A stretch of DNA of 43,708 nucleotides from Actinomycetaceae bacterium (GTDB lineage: Bacteria > Actinomycetota > Actinomycetes > Actinomycetales > Actinomycetaceae): NCBI GenBank assembly GCA_030524055.1, contig JAUNHH010000022.1, positions 1-43,708 on the forward strand, in the 5' to 3' direction. Below are positions 1,510-42,357 of this stretch, one piece after another. How positions within the stretch are numbered: the first letter of the stretch is position 1; each line of letters begins with the position of its first letter. A model generated the notes under the pieces. The model did no database searches, had not been told where the DNA came from, and was given only the letters and a program-made list of their open reading frames with translations. A program made the translations under genes and the position numbers.

Positions 1510-1521
1510 CCCCGGCCTCGT
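1510..1521. repeat. Single copy of the ACGAGGSCGGGG 12-mer, before rsmI
   Basis: CCCCGGCCTCGT followed by GAATGAG is an exact reverse-strand copy of the CCGGGG variant. It has no partner arm. It lies between the antitoxin terminator and the rsmI start, so it is not at the 3' end of a gene of its own. Confidence 0.7.
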
Positions 1522-1556
1522 GAATGAGAAAGGGGAAGGAATGAGACAATACGACT

Positions 1557-2414
1557 ATGGAAAACGCCTCTGGGACTATTCTCCGGCGAGGAACACTGTA
1601 TTTAGCGGCCACACCCATTGGCGACACTCGCGACGCCTCAGCGCGCCTTATTGGCGCTCTCCACGAAGCTGACATTATTGCCGCGGAAGACACCCGTAAA
1701 CTCCATAGTTTGCTTGCCCGGCTCGACTGTCAACCGAGTGGGAAAATCCTGAGTTTACATGACCATAATGAAGGCCAGCGTGCCCAAGGTCTGATTCGGG
1801 CCGCTGAAGACGGAGCACGTATTCTGATTGTTTCCGATGCAGGAATGCCCACCGTTTCTGATCCGGGATACCGGGCAGTTACCTTAGCTGTGGAGGCTGG
1901 TATCCCTGTCAGTGCTATTCCCGGGCCCTCGGCACCTTTAGCGGCATTGGCAGTGTCAGGCCTTCCCAGTGATCGTTTTTCTTTTGAGGGCTTCCTGCCG
2001 CGTAAAGACGGCGAAGCGCAGCGTTTTCTTTCCGCATTATCCACCGACACGCATACGCTGATTTTCTTCGAGTCTCCTAAACGCCTACATCACACGCTAG
2101 CGCGAATGGCAGAGGTGTTTGGCACCGATAGGCGCGGCGCCGTCTGCCGGGAACTCACGAAGACCCACGAAGAGATTATCCGCGGGACGCTCGGCGAATT
2201 GGTGGCAACTACCAAAGGTGAAATCCGCGGCGAAATCACCATTGTTATTGAGGGCTTCCGCGGGCAGATCCAGGCAGCAGATTATGTTGACGCAGTACTC
2301 CACTTGGCAGATGAGGGAATGCGTCTAAAAGACGCCGCAAAAGAAGTTGCGCACACTACGGGAGCACGCGCAAATGACCTCTACACCGAGGCGCTTCAAC
2401 GCAAAAACGCGTAG
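1557..2414 (+). CDS. rsmI: 16S rRNA (cytidine-1402-2'-O)-methyltransferase RsmI
   Basis: RsmI uses S-adenosylmethionine to add the 2'-O-methyl group to C1402 in the decoding centre of 16S rRNA. The 285-aa product has the usual length and the family's tetrapyrrole-methylase-fold motifs: 'GTLYLAATPIGD' near the N-terminus, 'AEDTRK', 'SDAGMPTVSDPGY' and 'IPGPSAPLAALAVSGL' in the binding region, then 'FEGFLPRK', 'FFESPKRL' and 'CRELTKTHEE' in the second half. The ATG at 1557 is preceded by a purine-rich GGGGAAGGAATGAG tract, about 15 bases away, so initiation signals are not ideal. In many actinobacteria rsmI sits next to metG; here the two are 11.5 kb apart. The gene converges on the membrane protein at 2449-3090 with only 34 bases between the stops. 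Confidence 0.96.
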   Translation: MENASGTILRRGTLYLAATPIGDTRDASARLIGALHEADIIAAEDTRKLHSLLARLDCQPSGKILSLHDHNEGQRAQGLIRAAEDGARILIVSDAGMPTVSDPGYRAVTLAVEAGIPVSAIPGPSAPLAALAVSGLPSDRFSFEGFLPRKDGEAQRFLSALSTDTHTLIFFESPKRLHHTLARMAEVFGTDRRGAVCRELTKTHEEIIRGTLGELVATTKGEIRGEITIVIEGFRGQIQAADYVDAVLHLADEGMRLKDAAKEVAHTTGARANDLYTEALQRKNA

Positions 2415-2448
2415 TAGGGCATCCTCGCTGTAGCGTTGTCGGTCTGTT

Positions 2449-3090
2449 TTATAGGCTCCTGCGCTCAACAGCGCGAATAATCCAGAAGATCGCTCCAAAC
2501 AGCATAATGAAAAAGCCACCCGTGGCAAGGAACGACGCCCCAATGGTACCTAAGACGCCGCCACCAATCTGCCGGATGGGGTTATTAGTCAACAGAGTTT
2601 GGCCCAGCGCTATCTCTTGATTCCCCGAGATTTGCGTACAGTCAATTGAATATGTTCCCTCCTCGCTGGCAACGAAATTTGTAAAGCTGCGCCAATCACG
2701 ACCGTTAATAGACCGGGCTTCATTGGCGATTCGGGATTGCTTGATGTCTTTACCGCTCGGAGAAGTGATTGTGCACGAAGAAGCGAACTCATGATCCCAT
2801 TCGTCACCCTCAGTAAACAGAGCGTATTGCGTTTCCGCTTTTAACTCGGCACTGAGTGCGTCGCGTGAAGAAAAAGTATCGAGGTGCATTGCGCCTGGAA
2901 AAGTGCTGAATGCTGATCCGAAAGAAAATGCCGCTAAAGCGCAGCCAACAATCATCATTAAAAGGCCAATAATGGTGGTGACAATTGGGGCTTTAAGGCT
3001 TTTTCGCCGTGGTGGGGTGGTGGGAGTCTGCGCCTGAAAATTCTGATAGGTCGGCTGGCCGGGTTGCCCAGCTGGCGGATAGGCGGACAT
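2449..3090 (-). CDS. Two-helix membrane protein with Pro-rich N-terminus, function unknown
   Basis: The 213-aa product starts with about 30 residues rich in Pro, Gln and Thr, followed by RRKS, then a membrane helix (about 33-57, APIVTTIIGLLMMIVGCALA). A polar region of about 100 residues with two cysteines that could form a disulphide (SSCTITS and SIDCTQIS) follows, then a second helix (about 176-203) and a short basic tail. The topology suggests both ends inside and the middle outside the membrane. Similar architectures are common among uncharacterised actinobacterial envelope proteins; no enzymatic motif is seen. It lies 57 bases downstream of the nicotinamidase-like gene on the same strand and may be co-transcribed with it. 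Confidence 0.75.
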   Translation of the reverse strand: MSAYPPAGQPGQPTYQNFQAQTPTTPPRRKSLKAPIVTTIIGLLMMIVGCALAAFSFGSAFSTFPGAMHLDTFSSRDALSAELKAETQYALFTEGDEWDHEFASSCTITSPSGKDIKQSRIANEARSINGRDWRSFTNFVASEEGTYSIDCTQISGNQEIALGQTLLTNNPIRQIGGGVLGTIGASFLATGGFFIMLFGAIFWIIRAVERRSL

Positions 3091-3147
3091 AGTGATGCTC
3101 TTTCTTCTCGGGATCGGCCACGCGCGAGGTGCCCACGGCGCGATATG

Positions 3148-3732
3148 TCAGTGCGATGAAAAAACGTCCCTACTTGAACATAGTTTAACCCCGGCCTCGT
3201 CCATGACTTTCGCAGCGGCAATCCCTAATTCCTCGCTGACGGGCTCGGTGAGGTCCTCAAAAACGCGTACGCTAAGGCCCTGGGATACGCCATCAAGGGC
3301 GGTTTGGGCGACACAATGGGATTGAGCTAACCCCACGATATCTACATGGGTGATGCCGCCATCTTGGAGTACATCGGTTAAAGAACGGCCCTCGTCGTCG
3401 TTTCCCTCAAAGCCAGAGTAGGCGGCACTGTAGTGTCCTTTGCGAATGGCAATATCCGCATTCAAATTGACGAGGGCGGGGTGTAATTCTGCTTCTGCGC
3501 TCCCGGCCTGCCCATGAGGTGGCCAGGTGTCAATAAAGTCAGGGGTGGGGGAGAAGTGGTCGCCTGGATCAATGTGCCAATCCTGGGTGGAAATCACTAG
3601 GCAATACTGCGTTCGATTCGCTTCAACGAAGTCAGCAATGCGCTCAGCACAGGCATTACCGCCCGGAACGGGAAGGGATCCGCCCTCGCAAAAGGTGGGC
3701 TGAACATCGACAACAATGAGGGCTCGGCGCAT
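3148..3732 (-). CDS. pncA: Nicotinamidase / isochorismatase-family hydrolase
   Basis: The 194-aa product matches the cysteine-hydrolase family that converts nicotinamide to nicotinate in the NAD salvage pathway. The catalytic triad is visible as D9 ('VVDVQ'), K98 ('IRKGHYSAAYSGFEG') and C140 ('VGLAQSHCVAQTALDG'). The metal site is visible as D51-W-H53 ('TQDWHIDPGDHFS') and H73 ('WPPHGQAGS'). Nicotinamidases usually have ATDYCV before the cysteine; here it is AQSHCV, so a related amidohydrolase cannot be fully excluded. The protein is cytoplasmic. The gene carries two copies of the window's dispersed 12-mer inside its coding sequence (3189-3200 and 3470-3481). It starts at ATG 3730-3732; a candidate ribosome site, AAGGAG, lies on the opposite-strand reading just upstream. 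Confidence 0.85.
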   Translation of the reverse strand: MRRALIVVDVQPTFCEGGSLPVPGGNACAERIADFVEANRTQYCLVISTQDWHIDPGDHFSPTPDFIDTWPPHGQAGSAEAELHPALVNLNADIAIRKGHYSAAYSGFEGNDDEGRSLTDVLQDGGITHVDIVGLAQSHCVAQTALDGVSQGLSVRVFEDLTEPVSEELGIAAAKVMDEAGVKLCSSRDVFSSH

Positions 3733-12668: not shown

Positions 12669-12732
12669 ACGAGGCCGGGGCACACCTGAAACCCTCACGG
12701 CGTTTCTGATCAAGTGCGTTCCCCGGCCTCGT
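12669..12732. repeat. Paired 12-mer hairpin after the nucleoside-hydrolase-like gene
   Basis: ACGAGGCCGGGG (12669-12680) and its exact complement CCCCGGCCTCGT (12721-12732) are 40 bases apart. The pair lies 39 bases beyond the stop of the minus-strand nucleoside-hydrolase-like gene. Both arms carry the CC variant, so pairing is kept. It probably ends transcription or protects mRNA. Confidence 0.8.
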
Positions 12733-15796: not shown

Positions 15797-15837
15797 ACGA
15801 GGGCGGGGTAGCGAATTGGATCGCGCCCCGCCCTCGT
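15797..15837. repeat. Paired 12-mer hairpin after metG
   Basis: ACGAGGGCGGGG (15797-15808) and CCCCGCCCTCGT (15826-15837) are exact complements with a 17-base loop, starting nine bases after the metG stop. The tail GAATTC resembles that of the copy after sucD. It probably acts as the metG terminator, though no T-run follows. Confidence 0.85.
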
Positions 15838-16898: not shown

Positions 16899-16935
16899 GC
16901 CCCGTCCTCGCCAATTTCATCGACGAGGACGGGGC
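16899..16935. repeat. Paired 12-mer hairpin between converging genes
   Basis: GCCCCGTCCTCG (16899-16910) and CGAGGACGGGGC (16924-16935) are exact complements with a 13-base loop. They lie between the ankyrin gene stop and the stop of the converging small membrane protein. Both arms carry the variant base A/T in place of G/C. The orientation is inverted compared with the other pairs, with the GCCCC arm first. Confidence 0.85.
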
Positions 16936-19213: not shown

Positions 19214-19327
19214 GACTCCACTGTGGCCCATGAGGGGCGCCAGGCGATACTGGGGGATGCCCTGATCCTTCCCTGATTCCGGCCCTGAGTGGTAGGTGAG
19301 TGGCCCAAAAAATGTGAAGATGGGGAG

Positions 19328-20839
19328 GTGACGAACCAACCCCAGTGGGGTCCGCCCCCACCAACGACAGGCCACACAGCAAAGGACACCCAAGATCCTG
19401 CCCAGTCTGGATGGTCAGCACCATGGACGCCACACCGTGTCCCGTCACGGACAATGACCCCGCCCTCGTTAATGGGACACAACCCCACGACTAAGCCTCG
19501 TCTTGACGATCGACCACAACGGCCGCCACTACGACGTGCGACCGCGACCAGCCCAGATATGCCCACACCCTGGGCCGCCGGAGTATGCGCTGGACTTGCC
19601 GTCCACTTAGGGATACGCGTCAAAATCGTGCGGATTCTCTTCGCTCTAGGAGTCTGCATTGTTGGCGCAAGTATTGCCCTCTACCTGTGGCTATGGGTCA
19701 TGGTTCCTAAAGACGACCCCTACACCGTACGGCGCGCCACCCAAGGATATGGCAGCCCGCTGGCACCAGTCCCATCCGATAAACGACGCACCACCGTGCG
19801 TAATCAACTGATTATGGCCGGGCTCAGCCTGATCGTCATCGCCATATTCCTCACCTATTTCTCAACGAATAACGTCCTGCATGGAGCTGAAGACCTCCTC
19901 GGTGGACTCCTGATTGTCATTGGCATCGGCCTAGTCTGGAGCCGAACCGGAGCCGGATTTGATCCGCGCACCTTCGCATTCCAAGCCACTGTCGCCGCCG
20001 GAGTTCTCTGCCTTCTTAGCGGAATCGCCATTCTCTTTCTGATTGGCCAATCACCGATAGCAGCGATTAGCGGTGCAATTGTGGGCGCTGTTCTTGTTAT
20101 CGCATTGGGGGCCGCCCTCTTTCCCCTGTGGCTGCGTACCGCCCGTGAACTCAGCGCCACCCGCGTCCAACAAGTCCGCGACGCCGAACGCGCTGAAATC
20201 GCTGCCCACTTACATGATTCCGTACTCCAAACCCTTACCCTGATCCGCGGTGCCGCCAATGACCCCGCCAGGGTCCGCTCCCTTGCCCTGGCGCAAGAAC
20301 GCGAATTGCGCGCCTGGCTCTACACAGGCAAACAGGAAGCCGCAGAATCAACAGCCGAAGCCATACGCGAAGTTGTTGGGGCAGTCGAAGAAACCCATGG
20401 TGTTCCCGTTGAAGTCGTGACCGTTGGAGATATGCAGCCAGGACCTGCTGAACTTGCCCTCGTCGCAGCTGCTGGCGAAGCAACCAATAACGCTGTCCGC
20501 CACGGGGCACCCCCCATTTCTGTCTATCTAGAAATCTCCGCAAGTAGCGTTGACGCCTACATTAAAGACGCCGGCCCGGGATTTGATATGGACTCCATTC
20601 CCTCCGACCGTCACGGGGTACGCGGGTCCATTATTGGCCGCCTAGAACGCGCAGGCGGCACAGCCGTCTATCGTCGCCTCAGGCCAGGAACAGAGGTCCA
20701 CCTCAAGGTTTCCCGCGAACTTGCGGCTACCAAACCCACCACCATTCCCGCACCGCAAGTCAATGGGAACACCTCCAACCCGCAACCAGAGATTATTAAC
20801 GATATTCCCCCAGGATTCGCACCCCCAGGAGGGGCATAA
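19328..20839 (+). CDS. PspC-domain sensor histidine kinase (EsrS-like)
   Basis: The product (503 aa from GTG 19328) has a disordered Pro/Thr-rich N-terminus and a PspC domain ('PWAAGVCAGLAVHLG', then 'IALYLWLWVMVPKDD'). About four more membrane helices follow, then a NarL/DesK-type kinase core. The phosphorylated histidine is H296 in 'EIAAHLHDSVLQTL'. The ATP-binding half shows the N box 'GEATNNAVRHG' and the G box 'DAGPGFD'. The start is unsure: GTG 19328 gives a natural MTNQPQWG beginning but its GGGGAG touches the codon, while GTG 19289 and ATG 19423 are alternatives. The partner response regulator follows after 93 bases. PspC kinases of this layout sense cell-envelope stress. A 12-mer copy lies in frame at 19458-19469. 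Confidence 0.88.
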   Translation: MTNQPQWGPPPPTTGHTAKDTQDPAQSGWSAPWTPHRVPSRTMTPPSLMGHNPTTKPRLDDRPQRPPLRRATATSPDMPTPWAAGVCAGLAVHLGIRVKIVRILFALGVCIVGASIALYLWLWVMVPKDDPYTVRRATQGYGSPLAPVPSDKRRTTVRNQLIMAGLSLIVIAIFLTYFSTNNVLHGAEDLLGGLLIVIGIGLVWSRTGAGFDPRTFAFQATVAAGVLCLLSGIAILFLIGQSPIAAISGAIVGAVLVIALGAALFPLWLRTARELSATRVQQVRDAERAEIAAHLHDSVLQTLTLIRGAANDPARVRSLALAQERELRAWLYTGKQEAAESTAEAIREVVGAVEETHGVPVEVVTVGDMQPGPAELALVAAAGEATNNAVRHGAPPISVYLEISASSVDAYIKDAGPGFDMDSIPSDRHGVRGSIIGRLERAGGTAVYRRLRPGTEVHLKVSRELAATKPTTIPAPQVNGNTSNPQPEIINDIPPGFAPPGGA

Positions 20840-21600: not shown

Positions 21601-21612
21601 ACGAGGGCGGGG
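21601..21612. repeat. Single 12-mer after the response regulator
   Basis: ACGAGGGCGGGG starts 18 bases after the response-regulator stop, in the short gap to the converging TetR gene. No full partner arm exists; a shorter GGGCGCG / CGCGCCC pairing reaches into the end of the TetR gene. Confidence 0.7.
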
Positions 21613-23763: not shown

Positions 23764-23788
23764 GACGTGAAATAAGAAAGGAATGCTC

Positions 23789-25050: not shown

Positions 25051-25087
25051 ACGAGGGCGGGGCGCGTGGCTGTGGCCCCGCCCTCGT
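25051..25087. repeat. Paired 12-mer hairpin after GH1, left edge of the accessory module
   Basis: ACGAGGGCGGGG (25051-25062) and CCCCGCCCTCGT (25076-25087) are exact complements with a 13-base loop, 14 bases after the GH1 stop. It is continuous with the long direct repeat that also follows the 1273-aa gene. Confidence 0.85.
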
Positions 25088-25094
25088 GCATGAG

Positions 25095-25125
25095 GAATGA
25101 GACGCTCAAGACAGGCCGACCCGCC
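25095..25125. repeat. Left copy of the 31-bp direct repeat flanking the 1273-aa gene
   Basis: These 31 bases are identical to 29222-29252, in the same orientation. The similarity extends leftwards through the 12-mer hairpin (about 80-85 bases in all, with a few differences) and fades to the right after about five more bases. The two copies are 4127 bases apart and bracket only the 1273-aa gene. Confidence 0.9.
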
Positions 25126-25231: not shown

Positions 25232-25270
25232 ATGAGTGATGACGAATTCAAAGGGGCGTTCCAATCATGA
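25232..25270 (+). CDS. Possible 12-codon leader ORF coupled to the 1273-aa gene
   Basis: ATG 25232 opens a reading frame MSDDEFKGAFQS that stops at TGA 25268-25270, overlapping the ATG of the large gene as ATGA. The overlap is typical of translational coupling, and the AAAGGGG inside it could serve the large gene. Its own ribosome site is weak (AAAGTGG). It may be a real leader peptide, a remnant of an upstream gene, or chance. Confidence 0.3.
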   Translation: MSDDEFKGAFQS

Positions 25271-28200: not shown

Positions 28201-29088
28201 TATGAGGTAGCCCTAAGATTTTTGGGTATTTACTCCCGTCCTGCGAAGTGTGAACCTTATAGGGCGCGAGCGAGGCTTATTGTGCAGGCATTAAGTAGGC
28301 TAATAGAAATGCAACCCTCTTCTGCCTCCGAAGGAAGTCTACGAACACATGATTTCCAGAACCTCTTCGAGTACCTAGAAACCGCACGTAAATATCTTGA
28401 ACCTGGTGAACTCGCTCAACTTGAGTGGTCCTATCTTCCAGTGCTCGGTACTAACCCTAAGGTTCCGGCCCTGTCTGAATATTTGGCCATTGCCCCAGAG
28501 ATCTTCGTTGATCTGGTCTGCGCTGTTTATCGTCCACAGTCGCAATTTGAGAATGGCGAAAACAGTGCTCAGCAGAATGAAGAGCAAAGAGACGGATCTA
28601 GGGTGTTCATCAATGCCTACCGACTACTTCAGGCGTGGGATATACCCCCCGGACTAGTTGACGGTGTGATGAATATGGACTTGCTCAGAACCTGGCTCGA
28701 TAAAACACGTGAACTTCTAGCGGAACGACGTAGGACTGAAAATGGGTTGAAGCATTTTGGGCAGGTGCTCGGACATACGCCATCCGACTCCGATGGAACA
28801 TGGCCAGGTGCTGTAGTGAGAGACCTTCTTGAAGATGAGCAAGATGAGCACATTGAAACTGGGCTGTATCGATACATCGTCAACAATCGTGGCGTGACTA
28901 TCCGTGCCCTAGAAGAAGGTGGTGGCCAAGAAGAAAAACTGGTGGCTCACTACCGAACCCAATCCAAAGTATTAGCTGATATAGCGCCACGAACAGCGGC
29001 TTTATTTCGTCATGTGGTTGCGTCATATGAAAGGGAAGCGCGGTATGAGGAAGACAATGCAGAAGGCTACAGGCGTGGAGTCTACTGA
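25267..29088 (+). CDS. Large protein, nuclease-like N-terminus and helical C-terminus, unknown function
   Basis: The 1273-aa product is not a recognised named family. Residues about 1-180 contain 'GGWDGTV' (D57), 'VPEGLSVWELS' (E77) and 'KKADDDYGKR' (K86/K87), a spacing that recalls PD-(D/E)XK nuclease-like domains, then 'DIETWLEAAPVTWAWLSEELGL'-type sequence (split by a turn). Residues about 190-370 begin 'LAGRSEVAKLLEQRL', like the entry of STAND-type ATPases, with a possible Walker-B-like 'LAFVDELSSW', but no GxxxxGK[ST] P-loop anywhere. The remaining 900 residues are mostly helical, solenoid-like. It uses AGA, ATA and CTA codons freely and has lower GC than its neighbours; bases 28201-28260 hold 26 G/C by eye. 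Start ATG 25267 has AAAGGGG 10 bases upstream. A defence role is inference. Confidence 0.75.
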   Translation: MTPSGYVDRNRLKSWADERASQSEFPRLVRRLLLETTPGLVELGMPAGDGVAAGGWDGTVRASQATAWVPEGLSVWELSVNASPNKKADDDYGKRNETPDGSATSDCTYVEAVLRPWKDREKWAAEKRNEEFWRDVRALGLDDIETWLEAAPVTWAWLSEELGLTPRGLRTGEKWWQDWATQTDPEITPGIVLAGRSEVAKLLEQRLAIPGTTTTISGASLEELRAFIAAAAVDRDERGEGQTLARLAFVDELSSWRQLIASDQPLILVPTKPELVREIRRGTKHSYCVPVLAEANADLIVPALDTRELATALQDAGVTDDEKVEELSRLGRRGLPLLWQHIALKPELYPPAWADKPVLRDYRSILLAGSWNETAQGDRSTIEELAGRDYESFRGVAAEVLDSASDPLAIRTGDTWHLASPVTAWKLLVSTLTHDDLQRFESVAKKVLMEIDPAAELPRDQQWAAPIYGKDRSYSADLRKGLAQSLALLGTYGNAIVVYGEMTGADFANYLVGNLMTWAMDDSSTHAWQSLDEVLPLLAEAGPEAFLQAVTALVKGNNPQAKTLFEDGEDQFSVFFNSSLHVNLLWALECLSWCSDYFGQVVDLLARLDEIDPGGRMSNRPAELLAAFFRPWYPESPVGPDRRIAVLDNLRRRHPDTAWKVESSMLPEGNATALPIAGPKFRAWKPDRQPVTYGECWKVTSAAVVRCIEDARTDPERWVVLLKHISEMLPSDRQKVIDALAELASQSLSETTFRGTIWNQLVEFICRHRESPNAPDALSGEELGNLEVLAQQYQPDAAYQRRIHLFQSWTPCIGIPWWEQHKAYMCELGRQRAEAIREIEAEGGIDAIKRLAREATVGGAVGLALAVLGSRYDAELLGWLTVETEHVLTETAFSYFSSRYAQEGFEFIAELVACEGLTVVQRARLLLVVCEHLPEVWRMLDEDEELHARYWAEFCPFARGGDIDKVEEVAEQLIRVGRYEVALRFLGIYSRPAKCEPYRARARLIVQALSRLIEMQPSSASEGSLRTHDFQNLFEYLETARKYLEPGELAQLEWSYLPVLGTNPKVPALSEYLAIAPEIFVDLVCAVYRPQSQFENGENSAQQNEEQRDGSRVFINAYRLLQAWDIPPGLVDGVMNMDLLRTWLDKTRELLAERRRTENGLKHFGQVLGHTPSDSDGTWPGAVVRDLLEDEQDEHIETGLYRYIVNNRGVTIRALEEGGGQEEKLVAHYRTQSKVLADIAPRTAALFRHVVASYEREARYEEDNAEGYRRGVY

Positions 29089-29179
29089 TCAGTGCCCTGA
29101 TAATGCAGGCGACCGATGCTGATGCATACGCACAAAGAACGAGAGGTGAGTGGAAGAAAAATCGCGATAAGCACTTAGT

Positions 29180-29213
29180 CGAGGGCGGGGCAGCAGGTGT
29201 GGCCCCGCCCTCG
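29180..29213. repeat. Paired 12-mer hairpin after the 1273-aa gene
   Basis: CGAGGGCGGGG (29180-29190) and CCCCGCCCTCG (29203-29213) pair with a 12-base loop, 91 bases after the stop. The sequence on its right continues into the direct repeat. Apart from the loop it is nearly the same as the copy after GH1. Confidence 0.85.
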
Positions 29214-29221
29214 TGAATGAA

Positions 29222-29252
29222 GAATGAGACGCTCAAGACAGGCCGACCCGCC
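29222..29252. repeat. Right copy of the 31-bp direct repeat
   Basis: Identical to 25095-25125. It lies directly in front of the DUF1846 gene's promoter region. Together the two copies look like the scar of insertion or duplication of the 4.1-kb module. Confidence 0.9.
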
Positions 29253-29286: not shown

Positions 29287-29317
29287 CACTTCCTATGGCA
29301 TATGCATATAGGAAGTG
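29287..29317. promoter_or_regulatory. Palindrome overlapping the ribosome-site region of the DUF1846 gene
   Basis: CACTTCCTAT and ATAGGAAGTG form a perfect 10-bp inverted repeat around the smaller palindrome GCATATGC. The right arm includes AGGAAG, the likely ribosome site of the DUF1846 gene. It could be an operator or an RNA hairpin that hides the ribosome site. Confidence 0.55.
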
Positions 29318-29326
29318 GGGCACGAG

Positions 29327-30817
29327 ATGCATCGCAGTGGATTTGACCGCGAAAAATACCTGGACCTCCAAGCGCAACATATTGCACAGCGGAGAGCTCA
29401 ATTTGGCGGCAAACTCTACTTAGAGTTCGGTGGGAAACTGGTCGATGATATGCACGCCTCCCGAGTGCTCCCTGGATTTTCTCCCGACCTGAAAATCCTT
29501 ATGTTGGCCGAATTAGCCGATGAAGTCGAAATCGTCGTCGTTGTCAATGCCGAAGATTTCGCTCGAAATAAAGTCCGCGCCGATTTTGGTATCCCGTATG
29601 AAGATGACGTCTTGCGGCACGTCGATGCTTTCCGTGACTACGGACTACACGTCGGTTCCGTTGTCATTACTCACTGGCGTGAAGATAATCAGCAGGCTAA
29701 AGCTTTCCGACGTAAACTCCGCAAACTCGGACTGAAAGTATTCCGCCACTATCCGATTGCTGGATATCCCCATGATGTGGCCACGATTGTTTCCGATGAA
29801 GGCTACGGCCGTAATGACTATGTGGAGACCACGCGGGATCTGGTGGTGGTCACAGCACCCGGACCGGGATCAGGAAAAATGGCCACCTGCCTATCCCAGC
29901 TGTACCACGACCATATTCGCGGGATTTCTTCCGGCTATGCCAAATTCGAGACCTTCCCGATTTGGAATCTGCCTTTAGATCACCCCGTCAATATTGCCTA
30001 TGAGGCAGCAACAGCTGACTTAGATGACGTCAATATGATTGACCATTTCCACCTGTCAGCCCATGGGGAACAGGCCGTGAATTACAATCGGGATATTGAG
30101 ATTTTCCCTGTTCTTTCCCGCCTTTTCGAGCAGATTCTTGGCGCCTCGCCTTACCAATCGCCCACCGATATGGGGGTGAATATGGCGGGAATGTGTATTT
30201 CTGATGATGAGGTGTGTCGAGCCGCCTCTCATCAAGAAGTTATTCGCCGCTACTATAAAGCGCGCGTTCAAGAACGCCGTGATGAAATCGAGCCCGTACA
30301 ATCCGAAAAAATTGCGCTCTTAATGGCATCAATGGGGATTGAGCCCGCTGACCGGCCAGTAGTCACCCCGTGTCTGAATCTTGCCAAAGAAACGGGCGCC
30401 CCAGCAGCTGCTATTGAATTAGCAGATGGCCGCATTGAATTAGGGAAAACGTCGGCGCTTCTGGGGGCCTGCTCGGCAATGCTACTGAATGCATTGAAGG
30501 CGGTAGCGGGAATTGACCCGAGTATTGACCTTCTTGCCCGTGAATCTATTGAACCCATCCAGGCATTAAAAACAGGGCAGTTGGGATCAAAGAATCCTCG
30601 TCTACATACGGATGAGGTTCTGATCGCCTTAGCAGTGTCTGCAAATAGGGATGAAAATGCCCACCGTGCCCTTGAATGCCTGGGTGCTTTGCGCGGTTGC
30701 GATGTCCACACCTCCACCATTTTGGGTCCCGTTGACGAGGGCATTTTCCGTTCTCTGGGTATCCAGGTGACGAATGAACCGGTGTACGCCACGAAAGGGC
30801 TCTACCAAAAGCGCTGA
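29327..30817 (+). CDS. DUF1846 family protein
   Basis: The 496-aa product matches the DUF1846 family over its whole length: '[20 protein letters not shown]', '[24 protein letters not shown]', '[19 protein letters not shown]' (a P-loop-like, Gly-rich stretch) and '[16 protein letters not shown]'. Members are cytoplasmic proteins of unknown biochemical role, widespread in Firmicutes and Actinobacteria, with a nucleotide-binding-like fold. ATG 29327 is chosen over GTG 29315 because it starts at the conserved 'GFDREKY' boundary and has AGGAAG upstream. The gene is alone, with a palindrome covering its ribosome-site region, so expression may be controlled at translation. A single 12-mer follows the stop. 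Confidence 0.9.
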
Positions 30818-30843: not shown

Positions 30844-30855
30844 CCCCGCCCTCGT
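30844..30855. repeat. Single 12-mer after the DUF1846 gene
   Basis: CCCCGCCCTCGT starts 27 bases after the stop. The expected left arm is decayed to GCGGAGGG, so at most an imperfect stem of six or seven pairs can form. Confidence 0.65.
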
Positions 30856-30932: not shown

Positions 30933-32162
30933 ATGGTAACTGTGGATAGTGGAGATATTCTTCGGCCCTGTGCAAGTGCTGAGGGGACTCTTCGGTTGCC
31001 GTGGAAGCGCTGGCGAAAAGGTGACGATATCGCGCGACCCACCTGCTTTTTCCTCACCGGTGGTCCAGGGATCAGCAATCTGCGCTTTACCCCGCCACGG
31101 GCGTGGATTGAAAACATGGATGTGGTGACTTTGGAATATCGCGGGGTTGGGCAATCATCATTGCGCCTCAATGCTCCCTCCCTGAATGCCGCCGTTCTGC
31201 AGCCACTCAGCGCACTGTCCCTTGCTGGCGCGGAAGGGATGCGTCCCTACTTCGCGGCTGGCTTTCAGGAAATGAATGAGCAAGGAATTGTCTTTGAGGA
31301 ATTCGGGCTTAGTGCACTGGCCGATGATATTGAAGCTGCCCGACAAGAGTTGGGCTGCGGAAAAATCTTCCTGATAGCCCACAGTTTTGGCACCCGAATT
31401 GCCCAAGTGGTGCAAACCCGATATCGCGCATCGGTTGCGGGTTCCCTCCTTTTAGGATGCAATTCCCCAGCACATCGAGGACTTATCTGGTTTCCAGGAA
31501 CCACCAATAGTGTGTGGTCGCGCTGGGCAGAATCCGACAGTGCCCAAGAAAAGGGAATAGGGAATGATGTCGCCCAACGGCTTCTTCACGGTTGGGATCG
31601 GCAAGGATATTGGAATCCGGGAGATTCTGCGGCATTAATGATGGCATTTTTCCGCAGTTTCTCTTCAGATGCACAGCTGCCTTTAATGCGCACACTCCTT
31701 GCAGCCGAAAAAGGGAAAAGCCCTGCATGGTTCTTTATGGGACGTAGCTATAGTGCCGTGGCCAGATTAATGTTTAACTGGGCGGACTTTTTCCTCAAAG
31801 GCTACCTAGTGGAAGGCGATCGACGGGCTATTGAATTAGCTGATAGTCAAGGCGAAAATGCGCTTTTTGCTAGTCCATCATCAGTATTCTTTAGTGGCCT
31901 AGAGGAGTTTTACGAGGCCGGGGGGCGTCAAGATGACGCCCACAGCGTGAATTGGTCGAAAACCATTTTGGTGACCGGAGAATTCGATACGAGCACTCCC
32001 ATTGAATTACTTCCAGAACAGGTGCCAACCACTCATCGAATAATCCTGCCGGGCGCCGGTCACGCCCAGTCACTTCAGCAAGCAAAAATACAGGGAGTTC
32101 AGTGGCTCCAGGAGTATTTCGGTCCCGAGTTTATGGGGCAAGCCTCGCTTCGTACACGGTAG
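30933..32162 (+). CDS. Alpha/beta-fold hydrolase, proline-iminopeptidase-like
   Basis: The 409-aa product has the alpha/beta-hydrolase core: oxyanion 'LTGGPGISN', strand 'VVTLEYRGVGQS', nucleophile elbow 'LIAHSFGTR' (Ser near residue 151), acid 'VTGEFDTSTP' and a final histidine in 'LPGAGHAQS'. The GGPG and 'YRGVGQS' patterns match the proline-iminopeptidase/TAP-like group, which removes N-terminal residues from peptides, but lipase or esterase activity is possible. It has no signal peptide. ATG 30933 lacks a ribosome site and probably starts a leaderless message. The pcrA gene follows after 15-27 bases on the same strand and may be co-transcribed. A 12-mer of the CCGGGG type occurs in frame at 31912-31923. 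Confidence 0.85.
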   Translation: MVTVDSGDILRPCASAEGTLRLPWKRWRKGDDIARPTCFFLTGGPGISNLRFTPPRAWIENMDVVTLEYRGVGQSSLRLNAPSLNAAVLQPLSALSLAGAEGMRPYFAAGFQEMNEQGIVFEEFGLSALADDIEAARQELGCGKIFLIAHSFGTRIAQVVQTRYRASVAGSLLLGCNSPAHRGLIWFPGTTNSVWSRWAESDSAQEKGIGNDVAQRLLHGWDRQGYWNPGDSAALMMAFFRSFSSDAQLPLMRTLLAAEKGKSPAWFFMGRSYSAVARLMFNWADFFLKGYLVEGDRRAIELADSQGENALFASPSSVFFSGLEEFYEAGGRQDDAHSVNWSKTILVTGEFDTSTPIELLPEQVPTTHRIILPGAGHAQSLQQAKIQGVQWLQEYFGPEFMGQASLRTR

Positions 32163-32189
32163 GCGCCCCAAAGGGTAGTGTTACACCCG

Positions 32190-34880
32190 ATGGATACCGC
32201 TGCTAGTCACCTTCCCGATTTTGGACCCACCACGTGGGATGCCTCATGGGCTGATGAGGACTATATTCCCCGTGAGATTCCGGCCTTTGATGAGGAATAT
32301 GGCCCCTCAGATGATCTGCCACTCCTTGACGAGTCAGCTTATGGAACGCCCCACGACAATAGCCTGAGCGCGCCCGCTGTTGATCTGAGTGCGAGCACAG
32401 AGGCTGATCACCTACTGACAGGTCTTAATGAACAGCAACTTGCGGCGGTGACCCATAGTGGTAGTCCACTGTTGATTATGGCGGGGGCTGGGTCTGGGAA
32501 AACCCGAGTGCTGACCCACCGTATTGCGTATCTCTTGGAAACTGGGCGGGCTACGTCCGGGCAAATCCTCGCTATTACCTTTACCAATAAGGCCGCCGCA
32601 GAAATGCGTGAACGAGTATCCGCATTAGTCGGCGGGGCGGCAGCGCGTATGTGGGTGTCCACCTTCCACTCTGCCTGCGTGCGGATTCTTCGCAGCGAGT
32701 ACAGGGCGGCTGGGCTGACCTCCACCTTTACTATTTATGACGCGCAGGATTCTCAGCGCCTAATTCAGATGGTCCTCAAAGCGGCAGATGTTGATATTAA
32801 ACGCTTTAGCCCGAAAATGATTGCCGCACGCATATCAGATCTGAAAAATGAGCTGATTACGCCAGAAGAATTTGCAGAGCGGGCAGCGAATGACCCGATT
32901 TCGCGAATCGTGCGGGCAGCATATAGTGACTATGATCGGCGCCTCCGGCAAGCCAATGCCCTCGATTTCGACGACCTCATTATGCGCACTGTGCGTTTGC
33001 TCCAAGATAATCCAGGGGTAGCTGAACATTATCACCGGCGTTTCCGCCATATTCTGGTGGATGAATATCAGGATACGAATCACGCCCAATATATTTTGGT
33101 GCGCGAACTAGTTGGCAGTGGGGTGGATGGAGTAGCGCCCGGAGAACTGACTGTTGTGGGCGATTCCGACCAGTCAATTTATGCCTTCCGAGGTGCAACC
33201 ATCCGCAATATCGAAGAGTTCGAGCGGGACTTTACTGGCGCACGCACTATTTTGCTCGAACAGAATTACCGCTCCACACAAAATATTCTCTCCGCAGCAA
33301 ATGCTGTGATTTCGCGAAATGAAGGGCGACGCCCAAAGAATCTGTGGACAGCGTCAGGTGATGGGTCTCTGATTACTGTTGATGCGGCAGATTCAGACCG
33401 TGACGAAGCCCGTTTTGTTGTGGCTGAGATTGATCGCCTGGCAGACGGTGGCGAAAATTGGGGCGATATAGCGATTTTTTATCGGACCAATTCCCAGTCG
33501 CGTGCAATAGAAGAATTATTAGTCCGGCAGGGCATTCCTTATCGGGTGATTGGTGGCACCCGATTTTATGAACGTAAAGAAATCAAAGACGCCTTAGCCT
33601 ATTTGCAGGCGGTATCTAATCCGGACGACACCGTTGCACTACGCCGTATTCTTAATGTGCCTCGGCGTGGTATTGGCGCTAAAGCAGAAGAGGCGATTGT
33701 TGCCCATTCTGATCGATATGGAATTTCTTTTGGTGCAGCGCTGCGTGATATTTGGGTGGATGCAGGATGCCCACTAGGGGAGGGGGAAGGAATAACAGAC
33801 GAGGCCGGGGCCCAGATTCTTCCCTTGAACGCCGGTGGAGCTGAAGAAGGTGACACCCCGCCCTCGTCGAATTCCGCTTCTGAACGACGCGAAGTTCTGG
33901 GAATAACGGGCCGTGCACGTAACTCTGCGGCAGCCTTTTGGGGTTTACTCGAAGTGTGCCGAACTTTGGATGCTGGGGGCGGTGCTAGCGCCGATATTCT
34001 CGAAGAAATTCTCGACCGTACTGGCTATCTTGCTGAACTGCGTCGTAGTGAAGACCCTCAGGATGCCTCACGAGTAGAAAACCTGGCGGAGTTGCATTCC
34101 GTGGCCAAAGATTTCACCACGAATGCTCCCACGTCGCACTTGGTGGATCTGCTGGAACGTGTGGCGTTGGTGGCTGATTCTGATCAGGTTCCTTCCGAAG
34201 AGGCGCGCAGTGGCCAGGTCACGCTAATGACAGTGCATACTGCGAAGGGGCTGGAGTTTCCGACGGTTTTTGTCACCGGCTTGGAAGACGGGACCTTCCC
34301 GCACCAGCGCTCGTTGGGTGAAGCTGATGAGCTGGCTGAAGAACGTCGCTTGGCTTATGTGGCGATTACTCGCGCGCGTCAGCGTCTGTATTTGACGCGC
34401 GCGGCTGTGCGTAGTGCGTGGGGGGCTCCCCAAGAAATGCCGCCCTCGCGTTTTCTTGATGATATTCCCGGCGAATTGTTGGATATGCGGCGCGCTGCGA
34501 CATCGATGGAACGTAGCCGAGCACGGTGGAATGCCCGCGACGAGTACCGCGACCCGTGGGGTGATGACGATTCCGGTCCGATCTTCGGTGCTGGAGGTGC
34601 AAGGCGCGCCGATGGATCGACCACCTCCGCTTCAGCGAAAGCGGCAGCCGCCTCGCTGGCGCGGACAGTACGGATGGGCAGTGCTGCTGCCGCGCCCGCT
34701 CCAGCGTCGAGTGGGACGGCCCTGGAACTACGCCAAGGAGATCGTGTCCTTCATAAGACTCTTGGCGAGGGAGTTGTTCTTGGGGTGGAAGGCGCTGGTG
34801 CTCGCGCCATTGCCCGCATTGACTTTTCGGGAACAGAAAAGCGTTTACTTGTGCGAATGGCTCCCTTAGAGAAAATATAA
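32190..34880 (+). CDS. pcrA: ATP-dependent DNA helicase PcrA/UvrD
   Basis: The 896-aa product is a superfamily-1A 3'-5' helicase for DNA repair and replication-fork clearance. It has an acidic N-terminal extension of about 75 residues, then 'LNEQQLAAVTHSGSP' (Q motif), Walker A 'AGAGSGKT' (about residues 98-105), motif Ia 'TFTNKAAAEM' and Walker B 'DEYQDTNHAQ'. 'GDSDQSIYAFRGA' (III), 'LEQNYRST' (IV), 'TVHTAKGLEFPTVF' (V) and 'RLAYVAITRARQ' (VI) follow, and the C-terminal Tudor-like domain ends with 'GDRVLHKTLGEGVVLG'. Residues about 525-565 are an extra linker coded partly by a paired 12-mer repeat. The start is unsure: ATG 32190 is far from AAAGGG and GTG 32178 is very close to it. Confidence 0.95.
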   Translation: MDTAASHLPDFGPTTWDASWADEDYIPREIPAFDEEYGPSDDLPLLDESAYGTPHDNSLSAPAVDLSASTEADHLLTGLNEQQLAAVTHSGSPLLIMAGAGSGKTRVLTHRIAYLLETGRATSGQILAITFTNKAAAEMRERVSALVGGAAARMWVSTFHSACVRILRSEYRAAGLTSTFTIYDAQDSQRLIQMVLKAADVDIKRFSPKMIAARISDLKNELITPEEFAERAANDPISRIVRAAYSDYDRRLRQANALDFDDLIMRTVRLLQDNPGVAEHYHRRFRHILVDEYQDTNHAQYILVRELVGSGVDGVAPGELTVVGDSDQSIYAFRGATIRNIEEFERDFTGARTILLEQNYRSTQNILSAANAVISRNEGRRPKNLWTASGDGSLITVDAADSDRDEARFVVAEIDRLADGGENWGDIAIFYRTNSQSRAIEELLVRQGIPYRVIGGTRFYERKEIKDALAYLQAVSNPDDTVALRRILNVPRRGIGAKAEEAIVAHSDRYGISFGAALRDIWVDAGCPLGEGEGITDEAGAQILPLNAGGAEEGDTPPSSNSASERREVLGITGRARNSAAAFWGLLEVCRTLDAGGGASADILEEILDRTGYLAELRRSEDPQDASRVENLAELHSVAKDFTTNAPTSHLVDLLERVALVADSDQVPSEEARSGQVTLMTVHTAKGLEFPTVFVTGLEDGTFPHQRSLGEADELAEERRLAYVAITRARQRLYLTRAAVRSAWGAPQEMPPSRFLDDIPGELLDMRRAATSMERSRARWNARDEYRDPWGDDDSGPIFGAGGARRADGSTTSASAKAAAASLARTVRMGSAAAAPAPASSGTALELRQGDRVLHKTLGEGVVLGVEGAGARAIARIDFSGTEKRLLVRMAPLEKI
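33799..33867. repeat. Paired 12-mer repeat in frame within pcrA
   Basis: ACGAGGCCGGGG (33799-33810) and CCCCGCCCTCGT (33856-33867) are near-complements (one mismatch) 45 bases apart, inside codons about 537-559. It codes DEAGAQ... and ...TPPSS, a polar, Gly/Ala/Pro-rich linker that other PcrA proteins lack at this place, judged from memory of the family. The frame is kept. Confidence 0.75.
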
Positions 34881-34884
34881 ATCG

Positions 34885-34896
34885 ACGAGGGCGGGG
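34885..34896. repeat. Single 12-mer after pcrA
   Basis: ACGAGGGCGGGG begins four bases after the pcrA stop codon, in the 39-base gap to the converging SUKH-like gene. No partner arm is present. Confidence 0.7.
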
Positions 34897-35772: not shown

Positions 35773-36942
35773 GTGGACCTTTACGAATACCAGGCCCGAG
35801 CAATGTTTGCCGATCATGGGATTCCTGTCCTACCTGGAATTACCGCAACCACCCCAGATGACGCCTTTCAGGCCGCCACTGAACTACTCAAAGCCAGCGA
35901 CCTGCTGGTAGTAAAAGCGCAAGTAAAAACTGGTGGGCGTGGCAAAGCTGGCGGCGTCAAACTGGCCCGCACCCCGCAGGAAGCCCGCGAAAAAGTCGAA
36001 GCTATCCTCGGAATGGATATTAAAGGCCACACTGTCCACACCGTTCTTATTGCTGCTGGTGCTGATATTGCTGAGGAATACTATTTCTCGATTCTCCTTG
36101 ACCGTGCCAACCGCCAATTCTTAGCAATGTGCTCCAAAGAAGGCGGAATGGATATTGAAACCCTCGCAGCTGAACGCCCTGAAGCACTGGCCCGCGTTGG
36201 TTTAGACCCGAATATCGGTATTGACTCCACGGTGGCCGCCACCATCCTCACCCAGGCTGGTTTTGACGCGGAGACACAAGAAAAAATCAGCCCCGTCCTC
36301 GTCAAACTCTGGGAAACATTCCGCGATGAGGATGCCACCTTAGTGGAAGTGAATCCCTTGGTGTCCACTTCTGACGGCGAAATCCTTGCCTTGGACGGGA
36401 AGATTTCGCTGGATGACAACGCCGCATTCCGCCACCCTCACCATGCAGATTTAGTTGACCCGCGAACGGAAGACCCGCGCGAAGCCCTGGCAAAAGCCGC
36501 AGGCTTGAACTATGTGCGCCTAGAAGGCCAGGTAGGCGTGATTGGCAATGGTGCCGGCCTCGTCATGTCCACATTGGATGTTGTCGCACTTGCCGGTCAA
36601 GACTTAGGGGTGAAACCCGCGAATTTCCTTGATATTGGTGGCGGTGCTTCAGCAGAGGTTATGGCAAAAGGCCTCGAAATCATTTTGGGCGATGACCAAG
36701 TGAAATCCGTATTCGTCAATGTCTTCGGCGGAATTACGGCCTGCGACCAGGTGGCGCGCGGAATTGTGGGCGCATTAGAAACCTTGGGAGAATCCGCCAC
36801 TAAACCCCTTATTGTTCGCCTCGACGGAAATGCCGTTGACGAAGGCCGCGAAATCCTCCGCGAAGCTGCCCATCCTTTAGTGCATATGTCCGACACAATG
36901 GATGGTGCTGCTCGCACTGCCGCTGAACTTGCCGCGAAGTAA
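35773..36942 (+). CDS. sucC: Succinyl-CoA synthetase beta subunit
   Basis: With SucD this subunit interconverts succinyl-CoA and succinate while making a nucleoside triphosphate in the citric-acid cycle. The 389-aa product has the ATP-grasp N-terminus '[19 protein letters not shown]', '[15 protein letters not shown]' for nucleotide binding, 'EVNPLV' and '[12 protein letters not shown]' for metal binding, and the CoA-ligase C-terminus 'NFLDIGGGA' and '[15 protein letters not shown]'. The start is GTG 35773, with AAGGGG seven bases upstream. It is followed by sucD after 26 bases in one operon. A 12-mer of the ACGGGG type (reverse strand) lies in frame at 36291-36302. Confidence 0.97.
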
Positions 36943-37916: not shown

Positions 37917-37956
37917 ACGAGGGCGGGGCGTGACATAGAGCGCGCTCCGCCCTCGT
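37917..37956. repeat. Paired 12-mer hairpin after sucD
   Basis: ACGAGGGCGGGG (37917-37928) and CTCCGCCCTCGT (37945-37956) pair with one mismatch and a 16-base loop, followed by GAATTCTTTT. The T-run makes this one of the most terminator-like copies. Confidence 0.85.
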
Positions 37957-40333: not shown

Positions 40334-40345
40334 ACGAGGGCGGGG
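40334..40345. repeat. Single 12-mer after purN
   Basis: ACGAGGGCGGGG begins 13 bases after the purN stop, following TTCTTTTT. A short GGGCGC / GGCGCCC pairing is possible within it but no full second arm exists. Confidence 0.7.
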
Positions 40346-40434
40346 CGCGGCGCCCTATTGTCTCCTCGCTTTCACAGCAGGAGAGGCCCGTGGGTGTCTA
40401 TGTCGAGGAGCGCATAGGAGGGCAGTAGTAGACT

Positions 40435-40516
40435 GGCAGTGGCCGCAACTGGCGAGGGTGGACTACCACCGGGGAGCGGCCGGGTCAGGCCCGCAGTGCG
40501 TCGCCCGCCTGGGCGC
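40435..40516 (+). ncRNA. ZTP (pfl) riboswitch upstream of purH
   Basis: The segment shows the pfl/ZTP hallmarks: P1 GGCCGC (40441-40446) paired with GCGGCC (40476-40481), the internal hairpin GGTGG-acta-CCACC with the conserved CCGGGGAGC on its 3' side, and the hairpin CGCCC-gcct-GGGCG (40502-40515) that contains the hallmark CCGCCTGGGC. This RNA binds the purine intermediate ZMP/ZTP, which builds up when 10-formyltetrahydrofolate is short, and raises expression of purH or folate genes. It sits 34 bases before the purH ATG. Confidence 0.85.
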
Positions 40517-40545
40517 AAGGGCAACGGAATACCCGCCCTTGGAGG
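40516..40545 (+). promoter_or_regulatory. Likely expression platform and ribosome site of purH
   Basis: CAAGGGC (40516-40522) pairs with GCCCTTG (40535-40541), and the last G of the pair is the first base of GGAGG (40541-40545). A stem against the ribosome site, with no T-run, suggests control of translation start rather than of termination. Confidence 0.55.
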
Positions 40546-40549
40546 CATA

Positions 40550-42298
40550 ATGTCCGTCCGCTTGGACAATTTGGAAGCCATTGATATCCGACCCATTCGA
40601 CGCGCCCTTATTTCTGTCTACGACAAAACCGGCCTGATCGATTGTGCGACAGCTTTACACGAAGCCGGCGTAGAAATCGTCTCTACGGGATCAACAGCCA
40701 CGCATATTCACGATGCAGGAATTCCTGTGACACCGGTCGAAAAAGTCACCGGATTCCCCGAAGTCCTTGAAGGCCGAGTGAAAACCCTTCACCCTCATAT
40801 TCACGCCGGTATTCTTGCCGACCAGCGGAAAGCTGACCATCGCGAACAATTAGAAGGCCTGGGGGTTGCTGCTTTCGATGCCGTGATTTGTAATCTCTAC
40901 CCCTTTGAAGAAACGGTGGCATCGGGCGCCTCTTTTGACGCTTGCGTTGAACAGATCGATATTGGCGGGCCATCAATGGTGCGGGCAGCAGCAAAAAATC
41001 ATCCGTCGGTGGCGGTTATTGTTGACCCTGCTCAATATGGGGATCTTATTAAGGCGGCACAGGGCGAAGGCTATTCCCTAGAACAACGTCGCCACTTGGC
41101 GGCCCGCGCATTTGCGACAACCGCCCATTATGATTCCCAAATTGACGCTTGGCTGGCCACACAATTGGCTGGGGGTGATGCGCAGAATACTCCCGACGGG
41201 GGAGCCGATATTCCCACCACCGAATGGGCGCCAGTATTTGAACGCAGCGCAGATCTTCGCTACGGGGAAAATCCTCACCAAAGTGCGGCTGTGTATACCT
41301 CTCACAAGACCACAGCTCCTGCTGATAATGCCACTCCCACTGCTCCAGGTATTGCCCACGCTATTCAACTGTCCGGCAAACCCATGAGTTATAACAATTA
41401 CGTCGATGGGGATGCTGCATTACGTGCAGCCTATGACCATGCCCGTCCCTGCGTGGCCATTATTAAACACGCTAACCCCTGTGGAATTGCCGTTGGGGAT
41501 ACCGTTGCTCAGGCACACCAGCGTGCCCATGCCTGCGATCCGGTATCCGCATTCGGCGGAGTGATTGCCGTGAATCGACCGGTGAGTTGCGAATTAGCCG
41601 AACAAATCCTGCCAATCTTTACCGAGGTAGTGATTGCCCCTGGATATGACGAGGGTGCTGCAGAAATTCTCGCAGGAAAAAAGAATCTTCGGGTTCTTAT
41701 TGTCACCCCACCGACGCGCGGCGACAATGAGTTTAAACAGATTAGCGGCGGCCTTCTTATTCAGCAGCGCGACGATATTACTGCCGACGGGGATTCTCCC
41801 GAGAATTGGACATTAGCGGCTGGACCTGCTGCTGATGAGGCCACGCTGGCTGATTTGGAATTTGCTTGGCGGGCGGTACGTGCCGTGCGTTCTAATGCGA
41901 TTTTGCTGGCAAAAGATGGCGCCTCTATTGGCGTAGGTATGGGCCAGGTTAATCGAGTCGATTCCTGCAAATTGGCAGTCGAACGAGCGAATACTTTGGG
42001 CACTCGCTCAACAGGAGATGCCGCCCAGGCGCCAGCAGGTGCGGCAGGTATTGATTCGGCTGGGGGAGCTCGGGCCGAAGACCTGGTTGCGGACGCCCCG
42101 CCACAGCGTAGCCTCGGTGCTGTGGCTGCATCTGATGCTTTCTTCCCCTTTGCTGACGGCCTTCAAGTGCTAATTGATGCTGGGGTGAAAGCTGTTATTC
42201 AGCCAGGTGGGTCAGTGCGTGATGCGGAATCTATTGCCGCTGCGGAGGCTGCAGGAATCACTATGTATTTCACGGGGGTTCGTCATTTCGCTCACTGA
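40550..42298 (+). CDS. purH: Bifunctional AICAR formyltransferase / IMP cyclohydrolase
   Basis: PurH performs the last two steps to IMP. The 582-aa product has the IMP-cyclohydrolase half first ('[15 protein letters not shown]', '[27 protein letters not shown]', '[15 protein letters not shown]' in parts) and then the formyltransferase half ('[15 protein letters not shown]', '[14 protein letters not shown]', '[13 protein letters not shown]'). ATG 40550 follows GGAGG by four bases; the longer frame from 40439 would run through the riboswitch and is rejected. An extra linker of about 30 Ala/Gly-rich residues (about 520-550) interrupts the usual stretch between 'VERANTLG' and '[12 protein letters not shown]'. 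A paired 12-mer hairpin follows the stop. Confidence 0.97.
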
Positions 42299-42312
42299 GT
42301 CCTAAAGATTTC

Positions 42313-42357
42313 ACGAGGGCGGGGTTGCACTAATAAATAGTGCGGCTCCGCCCTCGT
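42313..42357. repeat. Paired 12-mer hairpin after purH
   Basis: ACGAGGGCGGGG (42313-42324) and CTCCGCCCTCGT (42346-42357) pair with one mismatch. An inner GCACTA-ataaa-TAGTGC stem lies inside, so almost the whole element can fold into one long rod, beginning 15 bases after the purH stop. Confidence 0.88.

Follow-up and report, generated by a model that had tools for sequence, protein, structure and literature searches.

The 43,708 nt stretch analysed here, which we call the window, is contig JAUNHH010000022.1 of an Actinomycetaceae genome (G000; 3,034,260 bases in 47 contigs). It carries many copies of a dispersed 12-mer, ACGAGGGCGGGG, a non-palindromic word that differs from its own complement and for which an earlier reading of the DNA (the original prediction) had proposed behaviour resembling that of DNA uptake sequences. 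The counts on which that proposal was built are reproduced: the window contains 14 exact copies, found on both strands, against none in each of 100 dinucleotide shuffles, together with 6 copies of the variant ACGAGGCCGGGG, in which position 7 is C (at 1510, 3189, 12669, 12721, 31912 and 33799), and 2 copies of ACGAGGACGGGG, in which position 7 is A (at 16923 and 36291). If any base is accepted at position 7 and at most one mismatch is allowed, the window holds 30 sites, against 0.82 expected.

Sites in the window

Unless a search is stated, gene names in the window were assigned by eye from translated open reading frames (ORFs). The RNA folds of the pairs were compared with 200 shuffles each. 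The sites are as follows.

1510..1521, minus strand: single variant ACGAGGCCGGGG, intergenic, upstream of 1557-2414
3189..3200, minus strand: variant ACGAGGCCGGGG in a pncA-like gene (3148-3732, minus strand), encoding ..DEAG..; no indel within the motif relative to a solved PncA chain
3470..3481, plus strand: exact copy, antisense in the same pncA-like gene, ..HPALV..; no indel relative to a solved PncA chain
12669..12732: inverted pair of ACGAGGCCGGGG (12669 plus, 12721 minus), intergenic hairpin; fold -36.2 kcal/mol, z -4.8
15797..15837: inverted pair, both exact, starting 9 nt after the metG stop; hairpin, -37.4 kcal/mol, z -6.5
16900..16934: inverted pair in the opposite arrangement, GCGAGGACGGGG (minus) and ACGAGGACGGGG (plus), after the stop of 15870-16892; fold -26.7 kcal/mol, z -4.5
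19458..19469, minus strand: exact single copy near the 5' end of a sensor-kinase-like ORF (19289-20839, plus strand), whose true start is uncertain
21601..21612, plus strand: exact single copy between the convergent ORFs 20933-21583 (plus) and 21631-22287 (minus)
25051..25087: inverted pair, both exact, starting 15 nt after the stop of 23783-25036; hairpin, -32.8 kcal/mol, z -5.3
29179..29214: inverted pair, TCGAGGGCGGGG (plus) and exact (minus), after 25267-29088; hairpin, -30.5 kcal/mol, z -4.6
30844..30855, minus strand: exact single copy after the stop of 29315-30817
31912..31923, plus strand: variant ACGAGGCCGGGG inside an alpha/beta-hydrolase-like gene (30933-32162, plus strand)
33799..33867: variant (33799, plus) and exact copy (33856, minus), 45 nt apart, inside a pcrA/uvrD-like gene (32178-34880, plus strand); pair left out of folding
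34885..34896, plus strand: exact single copy starting 5 nt after the pcrA-like stop, in a convergent gap
36291..36302, minus strand: variant ACGAGGACGGGG, antisense in sucC (35773-36942, plus strand), ..SPVLV..; no indel within the motif relative to two solved SucC chains
37917..37956: inverted pair, exact (plus) and ACGAGGGCGGAG (minus), after the sucD-like stop; hairpin, -36.9 kcal/mol, z -7.8
40334..40345, plus strand: exact single copy after the purN-like stop
42313..42357: inverted pair, exact (plus) and ACGAGGGCGGAG (minus), after the purH-like stop; 21-bp stem, -41.1 kcal/mol, z -9.2

The in-gene copies that had been assigned to pncA (twice), a kinase, a hydrolase, pcrA and sucC agree with the translated ORFs, names again being given by eye, and the remark that many copies follow closely upon stop codons is borne out by ten sites or pairs (15797, 16900, 21601, 25051, 29179, 30844, 34885, 37917, 40334 and 42313) that start 5-91 nt beyond the stop of a forward ORF. 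Seven of the eight close pairs in the window were folded, with energies from -26.7 to -41.1 kcal/mol, and for none of them was any of the 200 shuffles as stable.

Two pairs that stand behind different genes (25076-25112 and 29203-29239) have most of a 24-nt outer flank in common (GTCTTGAGCGTCTCATTC...), which is, judged by its sequence, a local duplication of a terminator-like element. The MetG protein encoded in the window has its best matches in the Actinomycetaceae, at 85-87% identity, in a search that may leave out the sequence's own record. Among the neighbouring genes, ORFs 132-1145 and 15870-16892 look by eye like ankyrin-repeat proteins, the second of them sitting between two inverted motif pairs, and ORF 25267-29088, a protein of 1,273 aa to which reading by eye gave no name, is likewise flanked by two motif pairs.

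Abundance, placement and spacing across the genome

The word is neither near random in number nor confined to the region of the window. Across G000, ACGAGGGCGGGG occurs 1,001 times (500 forward and 501 reverse copies, throughout the 3.03 Mb), whereas the reversed word is found 0 + 1 times, and ACGAGGSCGG has 1,584 copies against 25. A logo built from 108 exact copies in a 373 kb sample (12% of the genome) covers positions -4 to +12 and reads A69 T67 t47 g43, then ACGAGGGCGGGG, then C72, such that the upstream AT (A 69% at -4, T 67% at -3) and the downstream C (72%) count as parts of the motif, whose consensus in this genome is ATtgACGAGG(G/A/C)CGGGGC. Position 7 is degenerate (A 23 and C 16, versus G 108) and position 11 accepts A (16), while the CGAGG core is nearly invariant and hardly tolerates single changes. 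The top-ranked 9- and 12-mers of the sample are themselves pieces or variants of this motif. As an order k-2 Markov expectation hides the motif (its sub-words being equally enriched), low-order and codon-preserving null models were used instead. AT-rich 8-mers (CAATATCG, CAATAATG) are about 6-fold over dinucleotide expectation in the same sample, perhaps as a matter of codon context; those of the CAATATCG type were considered as companions of the motif and set aside, given that inspection by eye of at most 14 places for each of four words revealed no regular adjacency.

Placement was scored in 393 kb of G000, taking ACGAGG[GAC]CGG[AG]G as a strong site and mechanical ORFs of at least 100 codons as genes. 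This sample contains 175 strong sites, of which 104 lie in genes, 69 between genes and 2 across a gene edge. Genes hold 105 sites if overlapping ORFs are counted separately, versus 2.8 after codon shuffling, and the 69 sites between genes compare with 0.18 in shuffled gaps. The preference for gaps is pronounced, with densities of 2.04/kb in gaps and 0.29/kb in genes (a 7x difference) and of 5.68/kb in convergent gaps. Only 22 pairs lie less than 90 bases apart, 16 of them inverted and wholly intergenic (12 with the plus copy first, 4 with the minus copy first). When pairs are collapsed, the coefficient of variation of the spacing is 0.728, against 0.927 +/- 0.076 in simulations that kept the observed preference for genes and gaps, and 1 of 2,000 simulations was as even.

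These figures bear on the idea that the motif is a terminator word and nothing else, in which case the pairs would be intrinsic terminators and the single copies their halves or decay products. Hairpins behind stops and in convergent gaps, including the seven stable folds of the window, are what such an idea would predict, but the majority of strong sites lie inside genes, close pairs are few, and the excess over codon-shuffled genes is large. We therefore regard this explanation as highly improbable.

The use of both directions, as originally described, argues in a similar manner against a recombination or segregation signal (Chi-like or KOPS-like) read by a helicase-nuclease or a translocase. 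Signals of the Chi/KOPS type are strongly oriented along a chromosome arm, whereas strong sites inside genes of G000 are divided into 52 sense and 52 antisense, and those of the whole sample into 94 plus and 81 minus. The motif is admittedly short, frequent, non-palindromic and also present inside genes, and there are mild imbalances: strand counts computed from sequence for 240 kb of contig C3 give 60 plus and 42 minus for strong sites and 36 plus and 28 minus for exact copies, and two 20-kb congener stretches are lopsided for CGAGG[GCA]CG (7/22 in L142, 13/3 in L183). Nonetheless, no strong strand bias was seen in the G000 samples or in the congener stretches, as judged by strand counts without a replichore map, and a signal of this kind appears very unlikely. 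An apparent strong polarity in a single-contig congener genome, with 100 forward places running, was discarded, for the listing was forward-first and 4 reverse sites occur at 300-320 kb (L189).

A further possibility is that transposition has spread the motif as a mobile or REP-like repeat, with which the many copies and the one local duplication of the window (sites 25076 and 29203) would be compatible. REP and BIME elements are extragenic palindromic units of some 20-40 nt. The motif of G000 differs from them in that none of the flanks of the 108 exact copies is conserved outside -4..+12 and 104 of the 175 strong sites are in genes, where moreover they favour particular frames: a single frame accounts for 37 of the 52 sense sites, and likewise a single one for 33 of the 52 antisense sites, the peptides encoded often being D-E-G-G or P-A-L-V. 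Furthermore, comparison of three in-gene copies (one in SucC, two in PncA) with solved homologues detected no indel within the motif, although this is a small test. Consequently, a mobile repeat is so improbable that we give it hardly any weight. The same three copies, together with flanks that do not match (bar the local duplication), suggest that motif copies arise by substitution in place, for which conversion by imported homologous DNA would be a better fit than transposition.

Dialects among relatives

The motif and its variants were also counted in relatives, as the original prediction had recommended. The exact ACGAGGGCGGGG is frequent in 5 of 34 congeners (G013, 190 copies; G015, 157; G014, 135; G017, 108; G007, 93), with 0-41 copies in the other 29 and 0-14 in 22 genomes of other families of the order. 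In nine of the 34 congeners it is ACGAGGCCGGGG that abounds, with 254-426 copies (G023, 426; G011, 418; G022, 391; G019, 375; G012, 363; G034, 355; G028, 330; G010, 267; G025, 254), compared with 0-2 for the reversed ACGAGGCCGGGG controls and 3-10 for ACGAGGGCGGGG. The split between the two words is incomplete, given that ACGAGGCCGGGG also has 167 copies in G000 and 185 in G013.

An unguided scan for 8-mers, using samples of 40-373 kb, a null that keeps proteins and codon usage, and masking of CRISPR-like arrays, has a CGAGG word at the top of the ranking for 11 of the 12 genus members scanned, only G017, where the excess is weak, departing from this; in G015 the word is CGAGGTCG. Among ten further genomes (one from each of nine other genera, plus G032), CGA[GC]GNCG comes first in eight, the exceptions being G127 and G032. 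Five of these eight are clear cases (4-11 fold in genes), two reach about 2-fold, and one (G066) is weak. Other genera of the family show CGAGGNCG or CGACGNCG, and ACGAGGCC and ACGAGGGC are dialect words of the motif, the former carried by a pooled set of four genomes. The CGACG words of G079, G087 and G081, which are 4-11 fold in excess in genes, are counted as probable dialects. We did not count CGACGNCG as a family-wide dialect at high G+C, since in G093, G129 and Georgenia its excess in genes is no more than about 2-fold. Overall, scan-picked words are in excess in both genes and gaps in 19 of 21 sets; the two sets without such an excess are G032 (genes 9 versus 9.7, gaps 0 versus 0.4) and a Brachybacterium control (genes 1.5-fold, gaps 2 versus 4.4). 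Family dialects around a conserved inner core are thus observed. Of ten congener samples with a motif, five have a higher site density in gaps than in genes (G013, G034, G009, G028 and G024) and five a lower one (G007, G014, G015, G016 and G030), and hence the gap preference, strong in G000, does not extend to the congeners in general.

Such overrepresentation of one short word in a clade recalls HIP1 of the cyanobacteria, a palindromic octamer that is overrepresented to an extreme degree. By analogy, ACGAGGGCGGGG could be an iterated motif maintained by an intracellular process of DNA binding, methylation or mismatch repair that has no role in uptake. A very high copy number, the use of both strands, the presence in genes and gaps alike and the variants among related species would all be in keeping with this, as would the fact that G032 carries competence genes without the word. 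However, HIP1 is palindromic and ACGAGGGCGGGG is not; the latter also, in G000, favours convergent gaps as hairpins, is spaced more evenly than chance and changes between species, with relatives differing at the flanks round a fixed core in the way that excerpts of PMC12616744 describe for known uptake sequences. An explanation of the HIP1 kind is consequently unlikely, albeit the one among the rivals that deserves most attention.

Several other features of these genomes came to light. The strongest 10-mer of G032 (102 kb; L231-L234 and L035), which lacks a CGAGG excess, is the palindrome CTGCATGCAG, with 8 occurrences versus 0.2. CRISPR-like repeat arrays in L147-L150 (G028) and L143-L146 (G009) have repeat words in common and dominate k-mer counts. 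Lastly, records titled Sanguibacter keddieii 250_SKED (L037), Xylanimonas cellulosilytica 352_XCEL (L041) and Trueperella pyogenes 331_TPYO (L032) encode MetG proteins 85-87% like that of the window, and over 21 kb L037 and L041, both in the ACGAGGCC-dialect set, match Schaalia sp. ORNL0103 at 90% and 95%. The names Sanguibacter keddieii and Xylanimonas cellulosilytica therefore look wrong for these records, while MetG is the sole evidence in the case of Trueperella pyogenes.

A candidate uptake sequence and its machinery

The com genes that the original prediction had suggested looking for are present in G000, where comEA (SLBB plus helix-hairpin-helix), comEC and dprA were all found, the first two back to back at L171:8585-11064. 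ComEC (PF03772) occurs in 150 of 151 family genomes and DprA (PF02481) in 34 of 35 genus genomes, the missing one being 70%-complete. G000 additionally has two Tad/Flp-type clusters, and its two strong T2SSE matches both fall within them. By profile, the cluster at L252:5094-10323 comprises an ATPase, a small pilin-like DUF4244 protein and a Tad (PF13400) protein, and that at L251:5096-9678 an ATPase, a TadE protein and a Tad (PF13400) protein; the names TadB, TadC, TadZ and TadF were given by eye and gene order, and three of the ten cluster proteins are without a Pfam match. PilM, a marker of type IVa pili and the one gene of that system searched for, gave no match in any of the 151 family genomes, yet was detected in 9 of 14 control genomes. 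The machinery would consequently be a Tad/Flp pilus and not the type IVa pilus of Neisseria and Haemophilus. Two side observations concern the same genes: the comEC open frame ranges from 508 to 908 aa among congeners G000-G034, so that a terminal domain or read-in may differ, and at G014:C1:82407-86055 two dprA matches of identical score lie 3 kb apart, either as a tandem duplication or as an assembly artefact.

Comparison with known systems is instructive. Uptake sequences make use of both strands and are evenly spaced. In Neisseriaceae, the DNA uptake sequence (DUS) has a GCCGTCTGAA core and occurs as AT-, AG-, TG-DUS and other dialects; it is 10-12 bp long, is present in hundreds to thousands of copies, and forms inverted pairs that are said to act as terminators (excerpts of PMC6370729 and PMC12616744). 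The motif of G000 resembles it in length, abundance, inverted pairs, family-wide dialects with a fixed inner core and an AT on the 5' side, but it is unrelated in sequence and phylum and its host is monoderm; given the results for PilM, one would not expect its receptor to be of the ComP type and borne by a type IVa pilus. The uptake signal sequence (USS) of Pasteurellaceae, AAGTGCGGT or ACAAGCGGT, is described in PMC12616744 as a dispersed sequence with a 9-mer core, occurring in dialects and also as inverted repeats. It is similar to the motif of G000 in each of these respects, whereas the AT-rich 3' extension of the USS is absent from the G000 logo and the machinery differs. In both comparisons, uptake in G000 is a prediction from DNA sequence. 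Within the actinobacteria, the natural transformation of Micrococcus luteus depends on a Flp/Tad system: it requires tad genes, spread over two islands, and comEA and comEC homologues are present (parts of PMC4322843 and PMC6370729); G000 has a corresponding complement of comEA and comEC homologues and two tad clusters. The term 'uptake sequence' has 0 occurrences in PMC4322843.

Enrichment of the motif, its pairing into hairpins and dialects that share a fixed core are all features described for DUS and USS (PMC12616744). Combined with the use of both strands and even spacing, they lead us to take the motif as an uptake sequence. It is quite probably the DUS of an actinobacterium, with ACGAGGGCGGGG most likely marking DNA as kin for natural uptake; the step from motif enrichment to DNA uptake is one that we infer. 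The motif would then work like a DUS, yet fall outside the DUS and USS families linked to type IVa pili. As to mechanism, we infer that DNA bearing the word would be preferred by a DNA-binding surface component, for which a minor Tad pilin or ComEA is the most plausible candidate. Kin DNA would be imported via the Flp pilus, ComEA and ComEC and then recombined, and word-bearing alleles, being imported more often, would accumulate by biased transformation (drive) wherever the sequence tolerates them. Intergenic inverted pairs may have been reused as hairpin transcription terminators, and a drift in receptor specificity, followed by the whole genome, could produce the dialects.

A number of observations weigh against this interpretation. 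The literature consulted contains no uptake experiment on this organism, and the minor Tad pilin and ComEA are candidates for the receptor. The machinery does not discriminate between explanations, as ComEC is near-universal and T2SSE-type ATPases occur in 35 of 35 genus genomes, whether enrichment is strong or weak. G032 has intact-looking comEA, comEC and dprA and at least the first genes of one tad cluster, yet no motif excess, perhaps because its specificity has been lost or a different word is in use. That a second tad cluster was lost does not account for this, because G016 and G024 also lack a second strong ATPase match and have kept the motif. The excess in genes is 3-8 fold in ten congener samples versus 16-fold in G000, with 1-5 gap sites each, and the words tested for excess were chosen on the very samples on which they were tested. 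To this can be added the weak excess of G017 and the lower density of gap sites in half of the congener samples. Finally, the conservation of dialect words among four close species (0.71) does not clearly exceed that of control words (0.49 +/- 0.18, with 105 of 150 sampled controls having enough sites). The uptake-like behaviour originally proposed is accordingly supported by copy number, orientations, hairpin pairs at gene ends alongside single copies in genes, spacing, dialects and com/Tad genes, but not by the absence of the motif from G032 or the missing gap preference of half the congeners.

As far as excerpts of PMC12616744 indicate, only two Gram-negative families, the Neisseriaceae and the Pasteurellaceae, are known to select DNA in this way. 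Among the matches listed for the open-access literature we found, by title, no report of an uptake sequence in Actinomycetota, and the three listed papers that contain the 12-mer or its complement concern human or other eukaryotic subjects, judged by title or abstract. It seems reasonably likely that the Actinomycetaceae have evolved a self/non-self DNA code, consisting of a CGA[G/C]GNCG core with species dialects, independently of both families and read by a Tad/Flp pilus. If true, Gram-positive phyla would gain their first uptake-sequence system, and the Tad/Flp class of pili its first link to such a system. A third independent origin, in a monoderm phylum and involving another kind of pilus, would allow a comparative study of how uptake specificity evolves, be it through drive, as a filter for kin or as a side effect of receptor binding, and species with different dialects would constitute a ready set for finding the receptor. 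Dialects would also define gene-exchange partners among oral and animal-associated species. On this interpretation, natural transformability is predicted for Schaalia and Actinomyces, as is the kind of DNA that they would accept, knowledge of which would aid the genetics of the actinobacterial hosts of Saccharibacteria.

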